Part shown: positions 40,341 through 58,500 of the stretch, one piece after another
Layout of the letters: each line of letters opens with the position of its first letter
How positions within the stretch are numbered: position 1 is the first letter of the stretch
From: Pleodorina starrii
Lineage: Eukaryota; Chlorophyta; Chlorophyceae; Chlamydomonadales; Volvocaceae
NCBI GenBank assembly: GCA_030267565.1
Contig: BRXU01000005.1
Coordinates: forward strand, 248,001 to 312,000
Reading direction: 5' to 3'
Length of the DNA stretch: 64,000 nucleotides
Made by a program: the position numbers and the translations under genes
The notes under the pieces: model-generated
Told to the model about the DNA's origin: nothing
Database searches by the model: none
Seen by the model: the letters and a program-made list of their open reading frames with translations, nothing else

Positions 40341-43300
40341 TTACGACGATCGCCAGTCGCCGTAGCTGCGGCGGGTGGGGCTCACACCCCTGTCGCCGCC
40401 GCCGGCGTCCCCGCCCGCCCCCAACCGTTGCCGCCAATCGGAGGGCGGTGTCGCACCCGACTTGGACGGACTCCGAGGCGGCGCGGCAGCGCCGCCGCCG
40501 GTGCCGGCGCCGCCGGCTTCTCCCACCCCACTCCCGCCCTTGGTCCGTGAGAAGATGCTCTCAGACGCCGCCGAGCCGTCAGATTTGGAGTCCCCAAAGA
40601 TGCCGCTCCCGCTGCCGCTGCCGCTCCGGTCGCTGGTGCTGGTGGTGCTGTTGCTCCTGCTGCTGCTGCTGCCGGCCGCTGCTTCTGCTTCCGGTGTGGG
40701 TATGGATGTGGATGCGGGTGTGGATGTGGGTGCTTCAAGGAGGCCGCGGGCGCGTCCTTGCGCCGCCGCCTCCGCCGACGGGGCCTGCATGTACTTTGCC
40801 GCCAAGGAGACGATGACGTCCAGATCGCTCTCAGCGGCCTTTGTGTGGCGAGGGGAAGGGAAGGAGGGGAGGGGCGCGGACAACAAAAGGAAAGGGCGGG
40901 CGGGCGGGCGGATGGGCGGAAAGGTGCAGACGAAAGGCACAGTCTGCTTTTAGTCAGGATTGCTGATGTAGTATCGCTACAGTGTGAGGGTAAGTAGGCT
41001 TCTGGGCCCCTTTCTTAGTTTTTTTCATTGTTGCGATGCTGCGAATTTTGTAATGCCAGCTGATGAAGTACAGAGGCGCAGCATGGAAAAGGTAGCTCCA
41101 CGGGGTTGGACATGCGAGATCGTCCCTTCGTCGTACTGTGCCGTACCCGGAGCTCTTCGATAAGACGCTCCTGGGCCGCCGCCGCCGCCATGCCGCCACG
41201 CTTTATCAGCAGCAGGCTCTGTCGTACCGCCCGGAGCGCGTTGCGGCCCGACGTGGTTTTGGAGCTGCAGATTGGAACACGCCGAGGGTCAGGGCGACGG
41301 AGCGAAAAGAGGGTTTTTAGGGTATTTTAGGGTTAAGATGAAAGATGAACGAGTTGAAAGAGGAACGCAAACGCAGCGCCCCCCGGCAGCAACATCTAAT
41401 CTCGTTCGACACAAGCAGCAAAATCAATTCCGACGTTTTTTCCGAGGCTTTCTTTTTCGACACCGCACACCGCAAGGCGCACAGAGGTGTGGAGCGGGGT
41501 AGCGCTGCGACCTAAACAACCCTGTGTCGTACCCGTATTCCTTGGCCATTGCCACCATGCGCTGCTCGTACTCCACTCGCACGCCGCCGCCGCCGCCGCC
41601 CGCCTGTCGGGAGGCGGCCTCCGAGGCAGACGTGACCTGCGCGCTCAGCTGCGTCACCATCTGGGTGGCGCGCGCCAGCCGCTCCTGAAGCTCCGAAACC
41701 TGCCGCCAAGAACAGCACATTCATGACATTCACGAATCCAGTGAGGTTTTGCTGCTGCCGATGTTGAAATCCAGTATGTCGCACACACACACGCACACAC
41801 GCACGGCCGCACGCACACACACAGAAACGGTCGCACACACGCACGCACAGACGGACGCACCTGCGCCAGCCGTACTGCCTCCGACTGCTTCAGCTGCATT
41901 CTGAGGTCGGTGATCTCCGCAGCGCTGGCCCCCTTGCCGCTGGCGGTCGCCTGCAGTGGGGTTTTAGGGTGGTAGGGTTTTAGGGTTTCAAAGGCTTTAG
42001 GGCGCAAGGGCAATGATGGGGCGGACGAGATGACTAAGGGTAGATGGGGACGCGCGCGCCAGGGGTGGCAGCTGCGGACACACACGATATACCCTTTCCC
42101 CCGGTAATAACAACAACACACATCTTTACGAAGATTGCCGTTGACACACATGCGGGAAAGACGGACGGACGCACGCTCAGGCGCACCCCCGCACATCCCC
42201 GCTCCTCCTCCTCCTCCTCCCTCCCTCCCCTCCCTCCCTCCCTCCCTCCCTCCCTCCCTCCCCCCTCCCCCACCTGCTTGACCTCCCTCAGGAGCGCCTC
42301 CCGCTGCGCCTCCGCCGCCTCCGTGTCTCTCCGCCGAGCCACCTGCTCGTCCGCCAGCTGAGTCATCAACCGCTCAGACCGGCTCTCGGAACGCTGCGAC
42401 AACATCGGAACACCAACACCGAAGAGCTCGAAGAGGGAAAGTAAAGGGCGGCGGGAAGAGCCCGACCAGGCGACGGCCGCGCACGCGCGGCCACGCGCGG
42501 GCACCCAGCCACCTCGCTCGCCCACATCCCCAAGCCCTAAAACCCTAAAACCCTAAAACCCTAAAACCTCACCCCTCCCGAACCCTCCCCATCCAGCCGG
42601 ACGTCCAACACCGCAGACACGGGCATGGACATGGACAGAAACACGACCACGTCACTCCCGCACCCAAAGCACACACACACACACACTCGCCGGCCCCCGC
42701 CCCCCGCACCCCCATCCCTCCGCCCCCCGCCCCCTCCCCTCCCCCCCCCCCACCTTGAGTGCCTCCTGAAGCTGCGACACTTTGGAACTGAGCGCCTCCA
42801 CATCCGCACCCCGCCGCCCGCCGTCAGACGCCGTTCGCTGCCGCTCCTGGGAGGGGGGCGGGGTGGGGTGAGGTGGGTGGGAGTTGCCAACCGGGGTTGG
42901 GTGGGAAGCGGCAGGGGCGGATTGAGGCGCGCGGACTGAGGGCTTCGTGCTGCCGCGCGGATACGGTAGCTACATGCAACGTGTAATCCGCACATCCCGC
43001 CGCAAGTCACGTGCTAACTTCACCCTCCCTCACCCTCTCGCACCCCCTCGCCCCTTCCCCCCTTCCTCCCCTCCTTTCTGTTCGTCTTCCTCGCCCCTTG
43101 GCCCTTGCCGCCCCTCTTCCAGCACCCCCGGCCCCCGCCCCCGCCCCCCACCCACCTCCACCCGCCCCTGTCCCCCCCCACCTGCAGCAGGGTGTTGTAT
43201 CGCTCCATGAGCCCCGCCAGATCGGTGTTGAGGTCGGAGATGGTCTCCCGGTATCGCACCACCGCCTCACTCAGTTCGCTGATGTCGGCCAGGTAGGCCT

Positions 43301-46300
43301 CCTCGGCAGACATCCACCGGGCGCTCTGATCGGGAGGGCAGAAGGGGGAGAGGGAGGGAGGGGGAGGGAGGGGGGTCATTGAAGTGGGAAGAGGAGGAGG
43401 GCAGCTTCGGCATCTGAAGGGGAGAGAGATGTTGTGTTGTGTTGTGTTGAGGAAACGGTGCAACAAAAGGCTTCCAACACAACAGCGGTGGAGAGGACCC
43501 CTTACATGACTCGTAGACGAGCGGCGTGACGTGCCGCCCGCCCGCAGGCCCTCGCGCGCGTGCCCTCCCTCTGTTGCTGGGTCCCCGCCACCCCTCCACC
43601 GCTGCATGCGTTCGTCCTCAGTGGGTCGGCTCAGTCGCTTAACCCCGCTGCCGGCCGCTGCCCTCCAGAGGGCTTCGCCCTCCTCCCTGCCGTTACCTGC
43701 TCGCCCGCCTCCCGCTTCGCGTCCTCCGCGGACTTTGACGCCGCCTCCAGCTGCCGCTTGGCCGCCTCGTAATCGGTGGAGAGGGAGGCCAGCTGGGCCT
43801 GTGGGAGCAGGGGAAGGATGCGGGGGGTTGCGGCACACCTTGGGGGTTTTAGGGTTTCAGGGTTGTTTTAGGGTTCGACCATGGTACACATTATATCGTA
43901 TACAACACACGGCAGCGCCGTGCGTCGAGTTGGGTCCTGGGGGTTAGGGCCCGGGAGTTAGCGAACCTCATTGGGTTTGCACGGTCCGAATACGGTAACA
44001 AAAGCACGAACGCCCCGACCGACCTGCGCCTGGTCGTACGACGATCGTACGGCAGTGAGTTCCTCCTTTGCCTCGTCGTACTGCTCCATGAGGGAGGACA
44101 GCTCCGCATTCAGGTCGTCGATAAGGCCCAGGCGGGACTCGATACCCGACAGAGCAGCCACCTGGGAGTCGCGGTCGGAGAGCTGGGTGGGCGCGGGGGG
44201 TTGGGGGGGGGGGGGTGGAAGGGGTTGGAGGGTTAGGGGGTGGGGGTGGGCAGCAGCACGGGAGGCGGCTGCGCTGCGCTGCTCGGAATGACAGGCTGGG
44301 TCACCAAGCGCGAGCAAGGGCCCAGGAACCGGCAGAGGACAGACACGTCGGCGTTTAGGACCGCCCGCAAACCTTAACGCACAAACACACGCTTCCCCTC
44401 CCCCTGCCTTAATCCGCACCCTCCCCCCGCTAAACCGCAACCGGGTCGCCTCCGTCCGACCTCCTTTCTCCGTTTCCGCCGCGCTTCCCTTTCTTCGCCC
44501 CGCCCTCGGCCCTCCCCCCTTTCTCTTCCCTTTCCTTTCCTTCCCTCTCCTTCCCCTCCCCTCCCTTCCAGCCCCTCCAGTGTCACCGCCCAGTCAGTCA
44601 CCTCAGTCAGTCACTCACCTGCTGCTGCGCGTCTTCCAATTGGTTGCGCAGTTCGCCCACCTCCGCCCGGGCGGCAGCCAGAGCCTGCTCCGTGCGACCC
44701 ACCTGATTGGGGGGGGGGGGAGGAAGGAGGAAGGATGAGGGAGGCAGGGGAGGGAACGAGGAGAGAGAGGTGGAGGGAGAGGAAGGATGAGGGGGAGTTT
44801 GAAGAGTGAATTTGCAAAATGGAAACAAGAAGTTCTGCGGACGTTGTAGTCTGAAGGTCGACTGGATGACTGTCAAGCCTCCCGCAGATAAAACTGCTAC
44901 CGGACCGGATGAGGGGGAGTGGAGGGAGGGGAGGGAACGAGGAGGGAGAGGTGGAGGGAGGCAGGGGGGGCTGGCGGGAGCGTGAGCAGTGGCGGCAGTG
45001 ACACGGAGATGCCATCCATACGGGCAGATCCCTCCTTCCCTTCCGAAGAAAGGGAGGAAGGCGGGGATTCGACGAGGTTGGGAGAGACGGGTGTGTGCGC
45101 CCCGTGGCCCCCTCCATCCCCGCCCTCCACCCCCCTTCACTCCCACCTCCCACCCTCCACCCCGCCCCCTACCTGCTGCGACAGCTCCCGCTCCCTCTCC
45201 TGCGCCTTCCGCAGCGCCGCCTCCCGCTCCGCCAACTGCGACTGCAACCGCTCCGTGTCGGCACGAGAGGACCTGCAGCGGGGCCCAGCGGGGCGGACAC
45301 ACACCAGGGGGGGGGGAGGTTATCCAGGTGTAAGGCCGAAAGGGGGGGTTCAGGGAGTGATATGCTCCTTTATAAAATAATGAGTCACTGCGGAAGGGGG
45401 AGGGGGTACAGGAGAGCCGACCAGTTTTGCAAGCTGACAGACACACACAGACACACATGCATGCTTAAGGAACACTGAACACTGAACACCGAAATACTCA
45501 TCAGAGGACCATTGGCACCACCACCACCACCCCCTATCTCGGTCCTTGCAGTCCTGTGTTGTAAGGACTGAGATGGGTGTGCTGGTGCCAGTCTTGTGTT
45601 CTAAGGAAACCAGCCCCCCGTATCGAGACCCCCGTATCGACCCCCCCCCCCTCCTCTTACGCGAGCAGCCCCTGCAGCTCCGCCTCCTTGGCCGCCCCCG
45701 CCTGCTGCAACGCACTCAGCTGCACCCGCGCGGCGGATGCAGCCGCCCGGGTCTCCTCCAGATCCCGGGCCGCCCGGGACTGAGCCTCTGCCAACGAGGA
45801 AGCCTCCTCCTGGGAGGCGGCAACCTGAGGCGGGGAGGGGGAGGGGGGGGGACGGAGGCAGCAGACGCAGGGGCGTGTTTCCCTACAACACAGGGCTGCA
45901 AGGATAGATATGGGTGGTGGTGGTGGATGCGGGGCGGCCGAGCTTCGTGGGGCAACTGCTGCAGGTGGGGCGGTGGGTGGCTGTGTGTGCGTGTATGTGT
46001 ATGTGTATGTCTATGTGTAGGTATGTACGTGTGTGTGCGCTTTTTACGCAACAGTGAGCGTGTTTCCTTAGGGTTTTTTAGGTCTCCTTTTTTCCAAGGG
46101 CCGTGAGTACAAATGGTTTGTTGAAGTACGCATACCTCTTCCAACCACCGCATCCCCCCGCCCTCGGCTCCCGCTGCCTCTCCTCGCGCCGAACATTTCC
46201 CCTCGGTCCCCGCCTCCGTCCCCTGTCTCGCCCGCCCACGCACACCCCCCACCCCCCACCCCCACCCACCTGCTCCCGCAGCTTCGCCTCCGCCACGGTA

Positions 46301-49300
46301 GCCTGCAACCGCAGGGCGTCAATCTCCCGCTGCAGGGTCGCCTCCCTGCAGCAGATTCGGGGGGAAAGTCATGTTGGGGGGTTTGGAAGGCTCCTCTCCG
46401 GATTGATTCCCTCGGGGCTGTGCCCTCCCTGCTGCTGCTGCTGCCCTGTCTTCGCGGGGCCCAGCAGGTCGCCTCCACTGACTGACTGAGTGGCTGAGTG
46501 GCCCCCACCGAGGCTGAGTGCTGCCGGGTCGGGCCCCCCTTTCCCCCATTCGGTTTTCTCCACTTGGCACCCAATCCCCTAACCGCCCCCATGTCCCCCA
46601 TCCCGCCCCCCTTCCCCTCTCCCGCCCCCACCTGGCCTCCGCCTCGTCCCGTACCGACGTGACTTGACCCTTCAGCCGCCGCTCAGCCTCCCGAGCCGCC
46701 TCCGCCATCTCCGCGCGCGCCTTCTCCGCCGCCGCCTCACGACTCGCCACCTCATCCTGCGTCACAACAACCGCCAGCAGCCGGCAGCAGCAGCACGGGC
46801 GCACAGGCGTCGTGCAGTAAGGGCGTGCGCGTCCAGTTGGGGGGGCGGGGCACACCCAGCTCGTCCCAAACACAGCACAGCACACGCGCGCGTTTTATTC
46901 CATACCCTCCCCCCATCCTACCCCACACCTCCCACACTCGCTCTGCGGTTTCATGTTCCTTACCCTCCCGGATAAGCACCCACACTCGAGGTCCCACACC
47001 CTCCTCCTCCCTACACGTTCTTTTGCAGACGAGACGGCCTTCTTCTGTTACTTGACCGTTCACGGGTTCCGGCCTATACGCGGATAACCCCCCTACACGT
47101 GGACACCTCCCCACACACACCCTCCTCTTCCACACCCCACTCCCTAACCACCCCACCTGCAGCTCCCTCAGCTCCAGCTGCAGCCGCTGCTGAGCCGCCA
47201 GTGCCGCATCCAGTGCCGCCACCCGCTCCCTCAGCACGATGGCGCCCTTCTCCCGGGCCTGCCGCTCAGCCTGGAGCAGACCCTGCGGGCAGCGGAGACG
47301 GGGCAGGGCGGGCAAGGAGCGGGGCGGGGAGGAGGGGGCAGGGGCAACGTAGAGGGGTTGGGGCAACAGCCCCAAAGAGCAGGAGGGGAAGAGGGGTTAA
47401 GGCAGCAAGGGGGACGACACGAAGAGAGCCAATCAAGGGAGGGGCCCTCAAGAAGGGTATCACCCACCCACCCACCCGCAGCTCTGCCTCCTTGGCCTGT
47501 GACTCCTGCTGCAGCGCCAGCAGCTGAGCCACCAGCTCGCCCTGCCGCTCCTGGGCGGTGGCTAGGCTGGCGGTCTGCTCACGAGCCAGCTCCTCGTACT
47601 TGGATGTGGCGTCCTGGCCGTCCGGACACACAGCGCGGGAGTGGGGGAGGGGAGGGAAGGGGAAGGGGAGGGGGTGTTTGGTTGGTGGTTACTTGGTCGT
47701 AAAGCCGGACTCGCTCTTGTGTACAGCAAGAAAGGGGGGCTGCTGCTGGAATTTGCCGGATCGTCGCTCACTCCCCTTTCCTCCCCCCGCTCCCTCCCTC
47801 CCTCCCCCCGCTCCCCTCCCTCACCCCGCTCACTCCCCTCCCCCCGCTCCCTCCCTCACGCACGCACCCGCAGCTCCGACTCCCGTGCCGCCGTCTCCTG
47901 CTGCAGCGCCAACACCTGAGCCACCAGTTCCCCCTGCCGCTCCTGGGCGGTTGCCAGGGTGGCGGCCTGGTCGCGAGCCAGCTGCTCAAATTGGGCGGCG
48001 GTGCTCTGAGGCGGAGTGACAAACGGGGACAAGCGGTGCACACAGGCGCGTATGTGTGTGTATTGAGTGTGTGTGTGTGTGTGTGTTGAGTGTGTGTATA
48101 TGGGTAGAAGGTCAGGGGCAAGTCGGCGGCGGGAAGTAATAACACTCCGATTGGGCAATGGCTGACAGGCTGCCAGACGCAGAAGGAACATCCAAGCACA
48201 TGCGGCCCCCCTCCAGTCCCCTCCAGTCCCGCTCACCTGCACCTGCGCCAGCTGACCCTCCAGATCTCCCTGCCGCTGCGCCGCCTCGGCCGCCGCCGTC
48301 CGCAGTGACTGCAGCTCGTCCTCCAAACGAACCTGCGAACCGCCGGGGTGCGCCGATGTCGCCCCAACGCCCAGTACAAACGTTGAAACTCGTGCACAGG
48401 CGCTGGCAGCGTGCCCCCCCGGCATTCGCCCGGCCCCGCCCTCCGCCCTCCGCCCTCCGCATCCAAAACGCTGCGTCTGGCCGCGACAACGCCCCGCCGA
48501 AGCACTGCCACTGAACTGCCCACCCACCCACCCACCCACCCGCTCTCTTTCCTGCTGGCGCCTGCAGTCCCCGACGGCCGCACAGCCATATTCCCGGCCG
48601 GCGGCCCACCCGTGAGGACGCCCGCCCGGCCGCGAGAGAAAGTGGGGAACAGGGCGCCAGCTCCCACAACAGAACGGAGAGCTAGCTCCCACAAGCGCCC
48701 GCCCCGTCTCAGTTCCCCCCGGCCTTCCATTCCCCGGCACCGCCCCCCTGCCCCCGCGCTCCCAGGTAATAAGCCAGGCAAGAGGCAACCCAGCCCAGCA
48801 AACCCAAACCCGCCAACAGCCACCCACCCACCCCGCCCCACCCACCCACCCGCGCCTCCGTGGCCTCCGTCTCCGCCCGGGCCAGTCGGTCCGTCAGCTG
48901 GGCCTCCCGCTCTGTCGCCTCCCGCATCTGACCCTGCAGCTGGGCCAACTGGGCCGTGTACTCCTCCGCACTCTGCCGCTGCTTCTCCTGTGAGAGTGAG
49001 GGTGAGGGCGAGGGTGAGGGCGAGGGTGAGGCGGGGTCGGGCGAGGCGGGGCGAGGAGCCAGTCACAGCGGCGCAACCAAAAACGACCCGGGCGAACGGA
49101 GCGGTATGCACGTCGGGGGTGGCTGTGAGTCTCTTGCTTTCCTTCCCCACTGAGTTGGGTTGGGTTGGGTTGGGCAGCGAATGCGGGTTCCAGTCCCAGA
49201 GGCACTGTGAGTGCGCAAACCCTCCCACTCCCCCACCTGCTCCTGAGCGATGGCCGCGTTCAGCTCCTCGATCTGGCCGCCGTACTCGGACTGCAGCGAC

Positions 49301-50886
49301 TCCATCTGACCGTTCAGCTCCTCAATCTTGTCCTCGTACAGCTGCGCACGACGGCCGTACAGTACAGCACAGTACAGTTACAGTACGATACAGTTGAGTA
49401 CGGCAGCAGTCAAAACCCAAATCAATTGTCGTCGTCAGCGCAGCACAGTACACCACATCACCCCATCCTCAAAACCCCAACCCTTACATTCCTCAAAAAC
49501 CAAACTCCCACTGCCCTTTCTCCGCGCTGCCGCAAACAAACACGTTTGCCTCGCCTCGCGCCATCCCGGTCCCCGATCCAGCCCATGCGGCGCCTGCTTG
49601 CCTTGAGTGTGGCCTCGTACTGGTGGCTGGTGGCCGTGAGGCTCTCCTCCAGCTCTCCAAGCAGAGCCGCCTGGGCCTGCCGCGCCGCGTCCAGCTCCGT
49701 CTCCAGCTCCGAAACCTCCTCCTGCCGGGACTTCTCCGCCGTCTCCAGGGCCGCTTCCAGCTCCAAGACACGAGTGTCGTACAACTGCAGTACAAGGCGC
49801 GACAGCGCACGGCCACACCCCGCAAGGCCGGGACCCAAGATCCGAGGGAGTTTGGATTGGAACGTTCAGCGCCGGCACCGGTAAGGGCATTTCCATCCAC
49901 CACCTTTTCCGTCTATCCCTAGGACTGGCTTTCCCAAAGGGACGCCGACGCGGCTACCGTAATCTCCGTCCTCTGTCCCGTCCCCGTCTCTCCCCTCCCG
50001 TCCCTGCTGCCGGCCGCCCCCCCTACCGTGAGTGTGGTCTCGTACTGCTGAGAGGCCGCCACGAAGTTCTCCTGGATCTGATGCAGCACCTCCTGCTGCC
50101 CCGACCGGGTGGAGGCCAGAGCCTCCTCAAGCGCGTGAACCTCCTCAAGCCGGGTGCGCTCCGTCGCCTCCAACTGGCGAGTCAGCTCCGAAACCCGCGA
50201 GTCGAACAGCTGCGATGGGGAGGGCGGGCGGGTGGTGGTGGGTGGTGGGAGGGGGCGGAGGGGAAAGCGGCGTGAGGAAAATAAATGTATGTGTGTCTGT
50301 GTGTGTCTGTGTGTGCGTGTGTGTGCATGGATGTGTGTTTGGGTGGGTGAGTGTTTAGGCCAGAGACCGCAGCGGATAGAAGAAGCAGCGTGCGCGCGCC
50401 ATGCAGGGCACAAGAACGTATGACAGGTAGTACGACGTACAGCAGAATCTCCGTACACTGCAGTCGTACCTGCAGCGTGGCCTCGTACTGCGTTGACGCC
50501 GCCGAGAAGTTCTCCTCCAACTGGGAGAGCAGTGCGCGGCTGTTGGCGTTGATGGAGTTGGCCTCAGCCAGCTCACGCAGAGTGGCCTCGTACATCTGCC
50601 GTACAGACGTGTACAGGCGACGCAAGGGGACGATCAACGGGGCGGAGCGGAGCGGGCGGGGCGCGGCGGTTACGCGGATGTGCCGACACCAAGACAAGAC
50701 AAGACAAGACATGGACATGCGCCAGCACCGACATTCGAAAAACACGACTGCGCACGTTGGGTGTGGGGTAATGTGCGCACGTGGCGCGCAGGTAGAGCCT
50801 ATCGAACGGGAGTCACACGTGTGTTTGTGTATGTGTGTATGTGCGTGCCCACCCGAGATGAATGCGTCCACGACCCAACAACACAT

Positions 50887-50920
<34 letters not shown>

Positions 50921-53797
50921 GGGTCCCCAGGATGGATGTCACCCCCCACCTGTCAGCCCCCCCACCTGCTTCGTCTGCATCAGCTCCGCTTGCATTGCCC
51001 GGGCGGTGGCGGTGGCCAGACTGTCCGCATTGGCGGAGGCGTCCGCGGCGGCGTTGGAGCGAGCAGTCGCCTCAGATAACTGGGTGCGCAGCGCCTGAGG
51101 CCGGCGGGCGGGACGCACGGGGCAGAGGGGAGCGGTTGCGGGGCGCGTTCGCGACACGGGGCTCGGAGATTGCACGGGGCACCGGATACCGGACACGGAG
51201 GTGTGCGCAGGCAGGTGCAGGCGGTGGCAGCAGCAACTGGGGCACGCGTGCGCGAGTTGAGCTCCTTGGTGGGAGGTTGGGAGCGGGGAGAGAGAGAGCT
51301 CATGAGGCAAGATGGCACCGCGACCTGCGTTGCTGAGGGCGCCTGGGTAAGGACGGACCGCAAGCCGCAAGCAATCGACGCAACCCTGGCGCCCGGGCTT
51401 CCCCGGGAGGCCTGCCCGCGCGCTTGCGTGTGTCGGCGCGTGGCGAGAGTACCCCGGCCCTCCCCGTCCCGCCCCGCCCCGTCCCTCAACCCTCCCCCGC
51501 CCCACCTGCAGCTCCTGCTTGCGCTCCGCGTCTCGCGCCGTCGCCCTGTTGAGCCGCTCCTCCAGGTCCGCCACCGCCCTCTCCTTGGCCGCCACCGCCG
51601 CCCTCGCCGCCGCCATCTCCGCCATCGTCAGTTCCAACTGGGAGGCCATGGTCTGAAGCTGGGTGCTCAGCAGCTGCACATCGGCGGGAGGGCCAGCGGC
51701 GCTAGAGGACGCGCCGCCGCCGCCGCCAGAGGCGGCGGCGGCGGCTGCGCCGCCGGCGCCGCTCCGCGGCGCCGGCCGGGCTTCGCCCGGCCCCGCCGCC
51801 TGTCCTTGCTCCTGCGGGCGCTTGCCGGGTGCCGCGTCGGCAGCGGCTGCGGGCCCCGCCGCTGATCTGGTCGAGGCTGTCCCCGCCTCGCCGCCCTTGG
51901 TGCCCGATGATGTCGACATCATCTGACGGACCTTTTGGAGCTCGTCGGTGCGGACCTGGCCAGCGCGGCGGCAGAACAGACCCCAGCGGGAATCGAAGGG
52001 GGGTTCCAAACAGGTTGCCTTGCCGCCGCCGGGGGATGTGCTGGAATACAATAGCGCGTTTTTCCGGTTCCTTAACCCGCGGCACGTCCGCACACGCAGA
52101 ATGGCAACCGCTATGAAACCCCTGTAGTTTCCTGAATGGCTGCATGGGGTCGGGCCAGAATGCAACGCGCAGCGCATCCGAAGCAGCGGCCCGCCTCCCG
52201 CAACTCTCACACACACTCACGCACCTGCACGGGCGGCGCCGCTGCCTTCCCGCCCGCCGGCGCCTTGGCCGGCCCCGGGTTTGGCGCCGCTGCAGCGCCG
52301 GTGGCCGCAGACTTCTGCGGCTGCTGCTGCTGCTGCGTCCGCGGCGCCAGGCGCAGCGGCGGCAGCTGCCCCGGCTCAATCTCCATGCGGCCCGTGCGCT
52401 CCGGCTGGCCCCAGGCGCATTCCAGCAGCAGCGCCTTGCGCCCGTTGTACGGCTGAACGATACGGTTGCCGCCGTTCTCCCATTGCACGCTCTTGTCCTT
52501 GCCTTCGCCCCGAACAACCATGAGCTGCAACGGTGGAGAGCGTGGTGGGGTGGTGGGGTGGTGGGAGTAAAGCAGCAGGACACCGGGGACTTTGGGTTCG
52601 AGAGAACCCTAAGAGAGACCGCGGAGAGAGCGTTTCCCCGATGAGCGCTGTGGTCCCCACCGGGTTCCCGACCCGTGGGACGCAACTTTTCCGGAACTGC
52701 CAAGCTGACGAGGTAGGCAGGTAGATTTGGTCGGCATTGCTGGTTCTGTTCGTCGACATCTCGCCTCCCCCCCAGTCCTCCGCTGCAGTTTCGTGTCCTT
52801 CTTACCCCACCGGCCCCCCGGGTGAATGAACGCGAGTGCTGCTGCACCGTTCCGGCCCCTCGGCGCTCCGTGACCCGCCACATCTGCCAGACCCACGGGT
52901 CAATCCCGCCATCTGCCTGACCCACGGGTCGGTCCCGCTCGCGCCACCAGCAGAACAGGCAGCACCCGGCGCCGCACCGCACACCTTGGCCGCCACCTCC
53001 TCCCGCAGCGTCAGCTCCACCTCCGCCGCCCATCCGCCCGCCTCCGCCGGCTGCAGCACCAGGCCCCGCCCCGGATCCCACTCGCCAAGCTCCCTGCAGC
53101 TGCCAACCAGCAGCAGCCGCTCGGTGACCCACGGGTCATCGCGCAGCGGCAGCGGCGGGTACTCCGGAACCACGACGCGGCAGCGCGTCACGACGCCAGC
53201 GTCCGACGGCGACGCTGCCGCCGCGCCGGCGGCGCCGTTGCGCGCAGCCCCCGGCGCCGCTGGTCCGGCGGCTTGACCGCTGCCGCTGCCGCCGGCAGGC
53301 GCTGAGCCGTTCGCTTTCGGGGCGCCTGACGGGGGCAGATAGCGGGCAGCATACGGCACAGCAATCATAGCGCCGACAGAGCGCCGAGTGCAGTCAGGGA
53401 GGCAGCATAGGACTGCTTCTGCGGGTGCGGGAACACGGCCGTACATACACACACATTCCAGCCCACCGCCCCTCATCCTCATTGTCCCTACCGGCGCTGC
53501 CGCTGCTGCTCCCAGCGTCCTTCGCCACGGCAACGGCGCCGCCGCTAGCCGTGGACGTGGCGGCCGCTGCGGCCTTGTCATCGGCTGTCGCCTGTGGGGA
53601 TCGGCGTTGACGAGGTTGAGGCGTGAGACGACGGATTGAGGTGCGGCCCTCCTCCGATACAAGCGGACACAGACCAGACCAGACAACGGACCGAACCAGC
53701 AGGCACAGCAACTGACCTTGAGGGCAACGAGGCGCGAGGCGGGCCGCGCGGGCAGCCCCCCACCGCCGCTCAGCCAGGAGGCCGCTGCGAGCTGCAT
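40341..53797 (-). CDS. SAGA1/2-like: SAGA-type pyrenoid protein: CBM20 starch-binding domain, long coiled coil, C-terminal Rubisco-binding motif; 29 exons, about 1557 aa
   Basis: Exons (minus strand): 53797-53717, 53591-53492, 53325-52985, 52524-52225, 51955-51506, 51094-50966, 50595-50470, 50209-50027, 49784-49602, 49341-49237, 48987-48850, 48332-48237, 48005-47868, 47613-47476, 47282-47157, 46756-46632, 46345-46270, 45824-45661, 45272-45173, 44702-44619, 44182-44024, 43798-43697, 43325-43182, 42846-42754, 42393-42274, 41950-41861, 41699-41533, 41264-41147, 40838-40341. All phases agree. The N-terminus is transit-peptide-like. CBM20 spans about residues 108-210, with LLLVGSCRELGEWDPG, a GGW strand and VQWENGGNR carrying the starch-contacting Trp. 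Residues about 330-1400 are Glu/Gln/Ala/Arg heptads. A Ser/Gly-rich tail holds DWRQRL (1526-1531) and ends in DWRSS; the first matches the known Rubisco-binding pattern [DN]W[RK]xx[LIVA]. In Chlamydomonas, SAGA1 and SAGA2 share this layout and act at the pyrenoid Rubisco/starch interface. Which paralog this is cannot be decided here. Confidence 0.88.
42535..42568. repeat. Interstitial telomere-type repeat (CCCTAAAA)x4
   Basis: Four exact copies of CCCTAAAA, the complement of the Chlamydomonas telomere unit TTTTAGGG, lie in an intron of the SAGA-like gene. Single or double copies recur nearby at 41962, 41978, 43847, 43866 and 54086, and in the ELG gene at 26722, 30555 and 30571. Confidence 0.85.
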
Positions 53798-55587: not shown

Positions 55588-58500
55588 ATGAGGAAACGCA
55601 CTGCGGGTATCGTTGGGGGCCACAGCGGCTCGTCATCGCTCCGCTGCCGCCAACATCGGCGCAGCGCCAACGGTGTACGCGGGGCCGATCGCCACGGGGG
55701 CATTCCTCCACCTCCATCAAGTGCCGCTTACCCCGAGCCCGCAACGCGCCCGGGCCGGACCGTGCGCCCACAGGACTCGCGCCCCCTGGTGCTCGCACCG
55801 CCGCCCTCCCAGCGGCCGCCGCCGCTGACCCTGCTGCAACAGCTGCCGCCCAGCCTTCACCCCGGCCACCCGCTCCAGCTCCTCCTCCCGCACCATGCAG
55901 CGGCGCTGCCGGGGCCCTGCTCGTACGGAAACCGTCAGGGCTCTGCCGTACTGACGAGCCCGGCGGCGAACCACCACCCCCTGGCGCGGCCCCGGGCCCG
56001 TGCTGTGGCCGTTGCGGCCATGGCGGGCGAAGGCGGCGGTGGCAGTGGCAGCGGAGCGCAGGCATTGTCAGCGGGGGCAGCGGCAGCAGGGGCGGGGGCG
56101 GCAGCGGCAGCGGGCGAGTACCATCTGCCGGCTCACTGGCAGGATCAGATGGAGAAGGCGCCTTTGGGCCGGAAGCGTGTGCTGCAGAGGTGGGTGGGCG
56201 GCGGGGCTTCCTGTGCGGTGTCTGGGCGGGGCGGTGTCTGGGGGAGGGAGGGACGGAGGAGGGGCGGCGGCCCTCTGGGGGGGTTGGGCCCGGCGGGCAA
56301 GAACGAATGCCAGCGGGAGACCTGTCGGAAGGCGGGGAAGTGCGGAGGAGCTCCTCCGGAGCCCACCCGGACTGACAGGGGCGGGCGGGCGGCTGGCGAG
56401 GGATGTGCTGGGTGTGCTGGCGGCGGCAGAGGCTGGGTGCGGGGGGCGCTGCGCCCTGCACTGCACTGCACTGCACCTGTACGCCGCGTCAGGGCGGCAG
56501 TCCGCGTTCATCCAGGGCGGCACCATCGGGTGTCTCTCAGCCTACTGAGTGTCTGTCCGTCCGTCCGTCCGTTCGTCTTCCAGCTGGCGCTGTGCACCGG
56601 CTCTTGCCCGGCTCCGCTCCGCTCCGTTCCGTGCGCCTCTGTGCAGCCCCATGTGGGTCTCACACTATAATGCGGCGCACATGATCCTTAGAGCCACATA
56701 GCAGCCAGAAACTCAACCTATGCCCTTGCCTGCCGCCCGGGGAGTTGGCTAGTTGAGTACCAGTCCCCGCGATGCACGGACGGACGGACGGACGGATGTC
56801 GGTGCACGCACCTCACCGATGCGCGAAGGGGCGGGTGGGGCGGGTGCCGTCGTGGGGAACTGCTCCCCGAGGCAGTGTGGACGGAGGTGGTCGAGGGGCT
56901 GTCGAGCGCCCACACACTCCCAGTGGAGCAGTGTGGGCGGAGGTGGTCGAGGGGCTGGAGAAGGCGGGCAGGCGGCTTGCCTTGCGCCCGCTGTCGGGCA
57001 AAGCCGGCCGCTATCCAGTCCAGTCGACGCCGCAGCATGGAAGGGCGCCTGCGGCCCGCTGCGCCGCCGTTGCGCGCGCGGGTGGCGAGTCTTGGCTGCA
57101 GCCTGGCCACACCCGACCCGCCAAGTTGCGCGGCCTCACTCTGCCGTATTCCTGCCGTACTTTGCCGTGCAGGTACTATGCTGACGTCATCGCCATCAAC
57201 ACGCTGGAGCCAGCCATGCGGGCGCTCAGCAACGTGCAGCTGCGGACCAAAACCGGTGCGTGGCTGGGTGGGCGCGGCGGGTGGGTGGGTGGGCGGGAGG
57301 GTGGGTGGGTGGGTTGGCGCGTGGGTGGTTGGATGTTGGATGTTGAAGGAAGCTGCGCTTCCGATCAGAGGCGGCATGAAAAGGAAGCTGCGCCTGGAGC
57401 AGCCGAACCCGTGCCCAGTCTGGCACCCGCCGACAACCTGTTTGCTGTCTGTGCGGTCCGTCTGATCAGAGAACAGCGCAGCTTCCTCTCCCAGTGGCTC
57501 AGACCTGTAGCCGCACCCACTCCTCCAATCCTCGCCCGCACTCCAATTCCCATCCTCACCCAACTCCGACCCTCCTCCCGCCCTCACCCTCCCTCTCCAG
57601 GCGAGTTCCGTCGGCGGCTGTCCGAGGGCGAGTCTCTGCAGTCGTTGCGGGTGGAGGCCTTTGCGGTGGTGCGGGAGGCCTCGAGGCGCGTGCTGGGCAT
57701 GAGGCACTACGACTGTCAACTGGTGAGGCAGAGGGGGGGGGCAGGCGGGTGCAGGGGGGTGGGCAGGGGGGGGCCAGGGGTAAAAAGAAGATATACCGCA
57801 GCGGAGACGGAGACGGCAGAGGGGTGGCACGTGGCAGGGGAGGATGAGGAGGACAGCGAGCACGGCACAACAACGTGCTGCCCCTCCCCACATTGGATAC
57901 ACACACCCGGGCAAACGTGTGGCTGGCGGAGCCACCGCCAGGCGTGCAGCAGTGCGTGTGGGACGTGATCTGCCTGGCGGCACTGACGGCCATGGAACGG
58001 GCGCGCGTGGGGCTGTGGGCAGTCAGGAACTCACCCACCGCCCCGGACGCCCCAGACCCAGTCGAGGTGGCCAAGGCGCGCGCAGCGCTAGATTTTTGGC
58101 AGCGTGTGCGGGGGTTTGCGGAGCTAGACGTGCCAAGGCGGGGATGGGAGGGGGTAGGGCCTGACCACCCCATCCTGGCGGTGGTCAACGGCCACTTTCA
58201 GTGTGTGCAGCACGCAGGGATGGGTATGGAGGGAGAGGGAGGGGTCGTGGAGTGAGGGGATGAAGGGGCTTTAGGGGTGAGGGAGGGAACTTAGGGCGTC
58301 GAGGCAGGGAGGCGTGAGAGGAGGGGAGGAGGGGGGGTTCCTTTGGGTCCGAGAGGACTTAGGGTGCAGAGACCGCCGCGGGCTGCCTTTTGTAGGCGAG
58401 GGAGGCTTTAGGGAGCGGGTACAGCGAGAGTGAGGCGAGTTGGCGAGGTGCCGCCTAGTGCGAACTATAGCTCCGTCACCTAGCCCGCTGCCGCAAGGCC

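Follow-up and report, generated by a model that had tools for sequence, protein, structure and literature searches.

The window analysed here, a stretch of 64,000 nucleotides from Pleodorina starrii (G000:C5:248001-312000), lies in an assembly whose 95 contigs sum to 136,057,477 bases; for strain NIES-4479 a published assembly is described as having 95 contigs and 136.1 Mbp (PMC10256686). On the minus strand, from 53797 to 40341, we found a 29-exon gene whose reading frame is kept across all junctions, laid out as follows.

40341..53797, minus strand: SAGA1-like coding span, 29 exons, 1557 aa
53717..53797, minus strand: exon 1, MQLAAASWLSGGGGLPARPASRLVALK, basic Ala/Arg-rich start
53492..53591, minus strand: exon 2, low-complexity linker
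52985..53325, minus strand: exon 3, linker and first part of the CBM20 domain (LGEWDPG; Pfam match from 53125)
52225..52524, minus strand: exon 4, second part of the CBM20 domain (VQWENGGNR, ECAWG; Pfam match to 52453) and linker
51506..51955, minus strand: exon 5, linker and start of the predicted coiled coil
41147..51094, minus strand: exons 6-28, predicted coiled-coil rod
40341..40838, minus strand: exon 29, end of the rod, Ser/Gly-rich tail and stop
40422..40439, minus strand: Rubisco-binding motif DWRQRL, residues 1526-1531, in SPSKSGATPPSDWRQRL
40344..40358, minus strand: DWRSS, the terminal motif (residues 1553-1557), which lacks the sixth position, in SPTRRSYGDWRSS*

The model was finished by hand from splice signals in genomic DNA alone. 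Its 4674 nt encode a product of 1557 aa (164.0 kDa) with a single, terminal stop. All 28 acceptors are AG and 27 of the 28 donors are GT, the exception being a GC donor of exon 9 at 49602; 24 of the 28 introns are in phase 0, and third-codon-position GC is 0.849 in the exons versus 0.636 in the introns. Splice sites, the single stop and coding bias all agree with the 29-exon model with matching phases that an earlier note had read from this DNA. An automatic splice model likewise has 29 exons, but its exons 1, 3, 5 and 28 are shorter, exon 2 is absent, and an end at 40579 is ranked first (score 548.9) with 40341 second (540.9). Protein database searches with the full model, the CBM20 region and residues 1060-1420 listed no deposited protein equal to the window model, and this gene may thus be missing from the published annotation or divided in it.

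Elsewhere in the window, a plus-strand frame at 56757-57965 holds a fragment of a SecA DEAD domain (6.5e-10), and no other recognised domain was found in the 10 frames scanned of the 40 that lie outside the gene and reach 230 aa. The unit TTTTAGGG, which we take to be the Chlamydomonas-type telomere unit, occurs 15 times between 26722 and 54093, where 0.68 copies would be expected. Most copies are in introns at 41315-43873; 10 of the 15 fall within the span of the gene, with one run of four.

The basic Ala/Arg-rich start encoded by exon 1 was judged by eye to be a putative chloroplast transit peptide. Downstream of it, Pfam CBM_20 matches residues 128-198 with 35.1 bits (cut-off 23.3; E 1.2e-8), the single CBM20 match in a scan of the first 467 and last 205 residues, and a genome scan placed a CBM20 exon match within exon 3 (G000:C5:301000-301125). 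The run VQWENGGNR occupies residues 187-195, and in an alignment to the glucoamylase domain 1ac0 LGEW and VQWE have their tryptophans in the columns of those of LGDW and VEWE, two residues that we take to form the cyclodextrin (sugar-binding) site. The stretch from residue 365 to residue 1411, 1047 residues that start in exon 5 and reach into exon 29, is free of proline and rich in A, E, L, Q and R, a composition by which we judge it to be a long coiled coil. The hand-assembled protein holds the CBM20 domain, the predicted coil of about 1000 residues, the DWRQRL of the tail and the final DWRSS that the earlier note had named.

The published Rubisco-binding motif, [D/N]W[R/K]XX[L/I/V/A] (PMC8320531), has a reported binding site between two small-subunit helices of Rubisco (PMC10473226), and in some proteins its presence is described as insufficient for recruitment to the pyrenoid (PMC8320531). 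The pattern [DN]W[RK]xx[LIVA] occurs once in the window protein, as DWRQRL at 1526, and at the terminal DWRSS (1553) the stop removes the sixth motif position. Because the consensus needs six positions, only DWRQRL is strict, and the description of this gene as a complete tether goes slightly too far, the terminal motif being one residue short. This truncation suggests that Rubisco binding may be weaker at one of two contacts. Both tail motifs are preceded by the EPYC1-like context [ST]P[ST][RK], in SPSKSGATPPSDWR and SPTRRSYGDWR, a pattern that was picked after inspecting both EPYC1 and the window tail. A search of the tail peptide against PDB sequences gave no match.

Shuffling and six-frame controls give a measure of how often such tails occur by chance. 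Among 20,000 shuffles of the whole protein, 1.9% contained at least one strict motif and 0.125% at least two copies of [DN]W[RK]; when the last 147 residues were shuffled 200,000 times, no shuffle had the motif in its context twice and 6.5 per 100,000 had it at least once. The six-frame control used stop-ended ORFs from selected P. starrii DNA, with the EPYC1 locus (L018) and the SAGA2-like loci (L052, L053) excluded and the window ORF included. Among distinct ORFs that reach 100 aa, 3 of 1241 carry a strict motif within their final 60 residues and 2 of 1241 have [DN]W[RK] no more than 3 residues from the end; with the limit lowered to 40 aa, which brings in the shorter NWR* frame of gene A (described below), the corresponding counts are 6 and 4 of 3754. 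W-R motifs that lack the EPYC1-like context do arise by chance at six-frame ORF ends, and the motif in that context was found in one ORF of the 1241 and one of the 3754, in both cases the window ORF.

The genome also encodes probable partners. EPYC1 of P. starrii lies at about 1276690 on contig C29 and has five nearly identical repeats; its motifs are NWRQEL, four copies of NWKQEL and a sixth, DWRKGL*, that ends the frame read, and [ST]P[ST][RK] precedes five of the six. RbcS is present in four copies on C14, with helix-A and helix-B frames readable in all four. A query joined from the first and last RbcS exons matches the solved small chain 1 without a difference in the two aligned helix regions and departs from it by one substitution in the rest of the alignment, and the helix-A variant found in two of the copies (S for T) is that of another solved chain, small chain 2; we take the matched chains to be those of Chlamydomonas. 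On sequence grounds, a Chlamydomonas-type Rubisco-binding system, with a five-repeat EPYC1 and compatible RbcS helices, appears to be present. RbcL was not found in the assembly, as expected given that organelle contigs are described as having been removed from it (PMC10256686). LCIB-type carbonic anhydrase genes are represented by 10 matched exons in three places; a genome search for bestrophins gave no match, but its controls were silent too, and it therefore carries no weight.

Genome-wide there are 26 CBM20 exon matches, and the corresponding genes were read for only part of them. A cluster at G000:C5:1829800-1868000 contains at least four CBM20 genes, a SAGA2-like gene and genes A, B and C (loci L023, L024 and L029), the last three with coil-like parts. 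The SAGA2-like gene, at about 1.842-1.830 Mb of C5, has CBM20s of 35.4 and 21.2 bits (cut-off 23.3) N-terminal to its rod, coil segments, the motif NWRQML and a C-terminal SIPSNWRDAL*, and it fits SAGA2 best among the genes examined, as judged from these sequences, with two motifs found versus the four reported for SAGA2. Gene A (L029/L023; G000:C5:1853088-1849290, minus strand) adjoins it and combines a short coil with two CBM20 stretches that jointly score 61.2 bits; its rough model, 428 residues from CBM20 to stop, ends in MTRSNWR*, where the terminal NWR* may be a weak motif, a decayed motif or chance. On C11 (L019-L021; G000:C11:805000-821400) lies the gene for the P. starrii protein P0001 (2001 aa; 26 pieces at 91-100% identity, counted only above 90% with weaker ones dropped), which has three CBM20s, a long coil and no [DN]W[RK] in its sequence. 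Its domain content would make it a further starch-binding rod protein. The strict Rubisco motif is absent from P0001 and from A, B and C as roughly modelled, the copies elsewhere in the scanned stretches lying on the opposite strand or between modelled exons, and a rod of about 1000 residues was not modelled in any of A, B and C.

When the whole window model was compared with the protein database, P0001 was the one match (7986 candidates scored, E <= 0.001), and it was rejected as an ortholog on account of its three CBM20s and its lack of [DN]W[RK]. Nothing was matched at E <= 10 by the CBM20 region (495 candidates) or by residues 1060-1420 (7981 candidates), and no Chlamydomonas SAGA sequence was among the matches of the three queries; these negatives are weak, because the prefilter depends on 5-residue words in common and its candidate list fills up with generic coils. 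Coil-to-coil similarity was dropped as evidence of kinship: the window rod scores z 8.1 against the SAGA2-like gene and z 6.9 against the same sequence reversed, which makes it indistinguishable from a generic coil. Among 11 CBM20 domains aligned, the window domain has its best pairwise score with the first domain of P0001, so that the CBM20 alone leaves the closest relative undecided. The window domain and the second CBM20 of the SAGA2-like gene have in common the run GSC[RQ]ELG[ED]W and, ahead of the central strand, a 7-residue insertion, both absent from the other nine domains.

Of the known proteins, SAGA1 (Chlamydomonas reinhardtii, Cre11.g467712) is like the window protein in having one CBM20, a long coiled coil, two W-R motifs and a similar mass, a likeness drawn from published descriptions rather than from an alignment to the Chlamydomonas sequence. 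In the original SAGA1 report the CBM20 is said to be N-terminal. Other accounts imply one CBM20 in SAGA1 (PMC13167743) and give it two Rubisco-binding motifs and a predicted 168 kDa (PMC11649565) or about 180 kDa, with the CBM20 of both SAGA1 and SAGA2 near the C terminus (PMC10823261). The window protein differs from SAGA1 in its terminal motif, one residue short, and in the N-terminal position of its CBM20 relative to the latter account. SAGA2 (Cre09.g394621) also combines CBM20, coiled coil and Rubisco motifs; it is described with two consecutive CBM20s (PMC13167743) or, in an account that gives it one, with four motifs and about 190 kDa (PMC10823261), whereas a single CBM20 is present in the window protein, together with one strict and one truncated motif. 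MITH1 (Cre06.g259100), described as a SAGA1 homologue, has 139 kDa and no detectable Rubisco-binding motif in that description (PMC11649565). EPYC1 resembles the window tail in its W-R motif after an S/T-P-S/T-R/K context but is a repeat linker, with no CBM20 or rod in the P. starrii frame read. The Arabidopsis starch-initiation factors PTST2 and MFP1 are coiled-coil proteins, PTST2 with a CBM, that have been likened to the SAGA proteins, and the parts of that source available to us mention no Rubisco motif for either (PMC13167743).

That the window protein is of the SAGA type is well supported by the content and order of its domains, its size, the context of its motifs and the presence in the genome of EPYC1 and a compatible RbcS. 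Within that type we consider it probably the P. starrii SAGA1 or a SAGA1-like protein, a candidate tether between starch and Rubisco. The earlier note had proposed orthology to SAGA1 or SAGA2; SAGA1 has become the probable member of the pair by elimination. A second gene with two CBM20s and strict motifs fits SAGA2 and leaves SAGA1 for the window gene, an argument weakened by the finding of only two of the four SAGA2 motifs in that gene. Counting against the SAGA1 assignment are the truncated terminal motif, a rod that scores like a generic coil, the best pairwise score of the CBM20 with P0001, the published finding that the motif does not suffice in every protein for recruitment to the pyrenoid, the preference of the automatic gene model for the end at 40579, and the N-terminal CBM20 and 164 kDa of the product, as opposed to a CBM20 near the C terminus and about 180 kDa (PMC10823261).

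The same elimination bears on whether the window gene is instead the ortholog of SAGA2, which would act as a tether at those parts of the matrix surface that lie between the entries of tubules; we regard this as unlikely. The domain types are the same, and the gene shares contig C5 with the CBM20 cluster at 1.83-1.87 Mb, which may correspond to a Chlamydomonas chromosome 9 group with LCI9 and SAGA2 (gene numbers from PMC10473226, from which we infer closeness). A single CBM20 and at most two motifs are, however, a poor match to the two CBM20s (PMC13167743) and four motifs (PMC10823261) given for SAGA2, and the cluster itself contains the better candidate. Unlikely, too, is a lineage-specific SAGA-like paralog with the true SAGA1 elsewhere in the genome. 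At least four genes combine CBM20 and coil (P0001 with its three CBM20s on C11, and A, B and C on C5), the count of paralogs is partial in that genes were read for only part of the 26 CBM20 exon matches, and gene A, with two CBM20s, ends its rough model in NWR*. An incomplete terminal W-R motif is therefore not special to SAGA1, which slightly weakens the SAGA1 assignment and slightly strengthens that of a paralog. Against the latter, no strict Rubisco motif was found in P0001 or in A, B and C as far as their rough models go, and none of A, B and C was modelled with a rod of the length seen here.

The chance controls address a starch-binding coiled-coil protein that has no Rubisco role and carries two coincidental W-R motifs. 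The motif is short, a strict copy turning up in 1.9% of whole-protein shuffles and at 3 of 1241 six-frame ORF ends, but the tail has two copies, both in the EPYC1-like context, and one of them stands at the extreme C terminus, as do DWRKGL* in EPYC1 and NWRDAL* in the SAGA2-like gene. We consider coincidence most improbable.

On the SAGA1 assignment, the CBM20 would hold starch and the W-R motifs of the tail would hold Rubisco, by analogy to the Chlamydomonas SAGA proteins. SAGA1 and SAGA2 of Chlamydomonas are described as binding starch and malto-oligosaccharide through their CBM20s, as located at the matrix surface and as jointly required for the starch sheath there, and SAGA1 as also recruiting MITH1 and starting tubules (PMC13167743, PMC11649565). 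Since the window protein is built of the same parts, its best reading is that it does the same work. We infer its chloroplast import, Rubisco binding and location; at the matrix surface it would have the starch-sheath role and would recruit MITH1, both functions being taken from the Chlamydomonas work. We see in it a sound further member of a known protein type rather than a new type, its one small surprise being the tail.

The earlier note had held that such a gene implies a pyrenoid-based CO2-concentrating mechanism. This fits a volvocacean host but adds little, since the conservation of SAGA proteins in Volvocales (PMC13167743) and the pyrenoids of other Volvocaceae (PMC4015742, PMC6591512, PMC6844456) are already in print; the excerpts available from the literature on Pleodorina and pyrenoids contained no description of the pyrenoid of P. 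starrii itself.

The terminal motifs of this genome are complete in EPYC1 and the SAGA2-like protein, end before the last hydrophobic position in the SAGA1-like protein, and are reduced to NWR* in gene A. Loss of SAGA1 in Chlamydomonas leads to many pyrenoids per chloroplast, and several Volvocaceae have multiple pyrenoids in mature cells. Since loss of SAGA1 multiplies pyrenoids in Chlamydomonas, a weakened SAGA1 tail could help explain the multiple pyrenoids of Volvocaceae, and Rubisco binding by sheath proteins would then be tuned at the C terminus in colonial volvocines, a conjecture that we regard as a long shot. P. starrii is a multicellular volvocine with EPYC1, a compatible RbcS and two distinct SAGA-type genes, and the presence of the two genes indicates that SAGA1 and SAGA2 had probably already divided their labour before the lineages of Chlamydomonas and Pleodorina parted. 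If its terminal motif is truly weaker, the window protein would be a natural variant in which the valency of Rubisco binding could be related to pyrenoid number and starch-sheath coverage.
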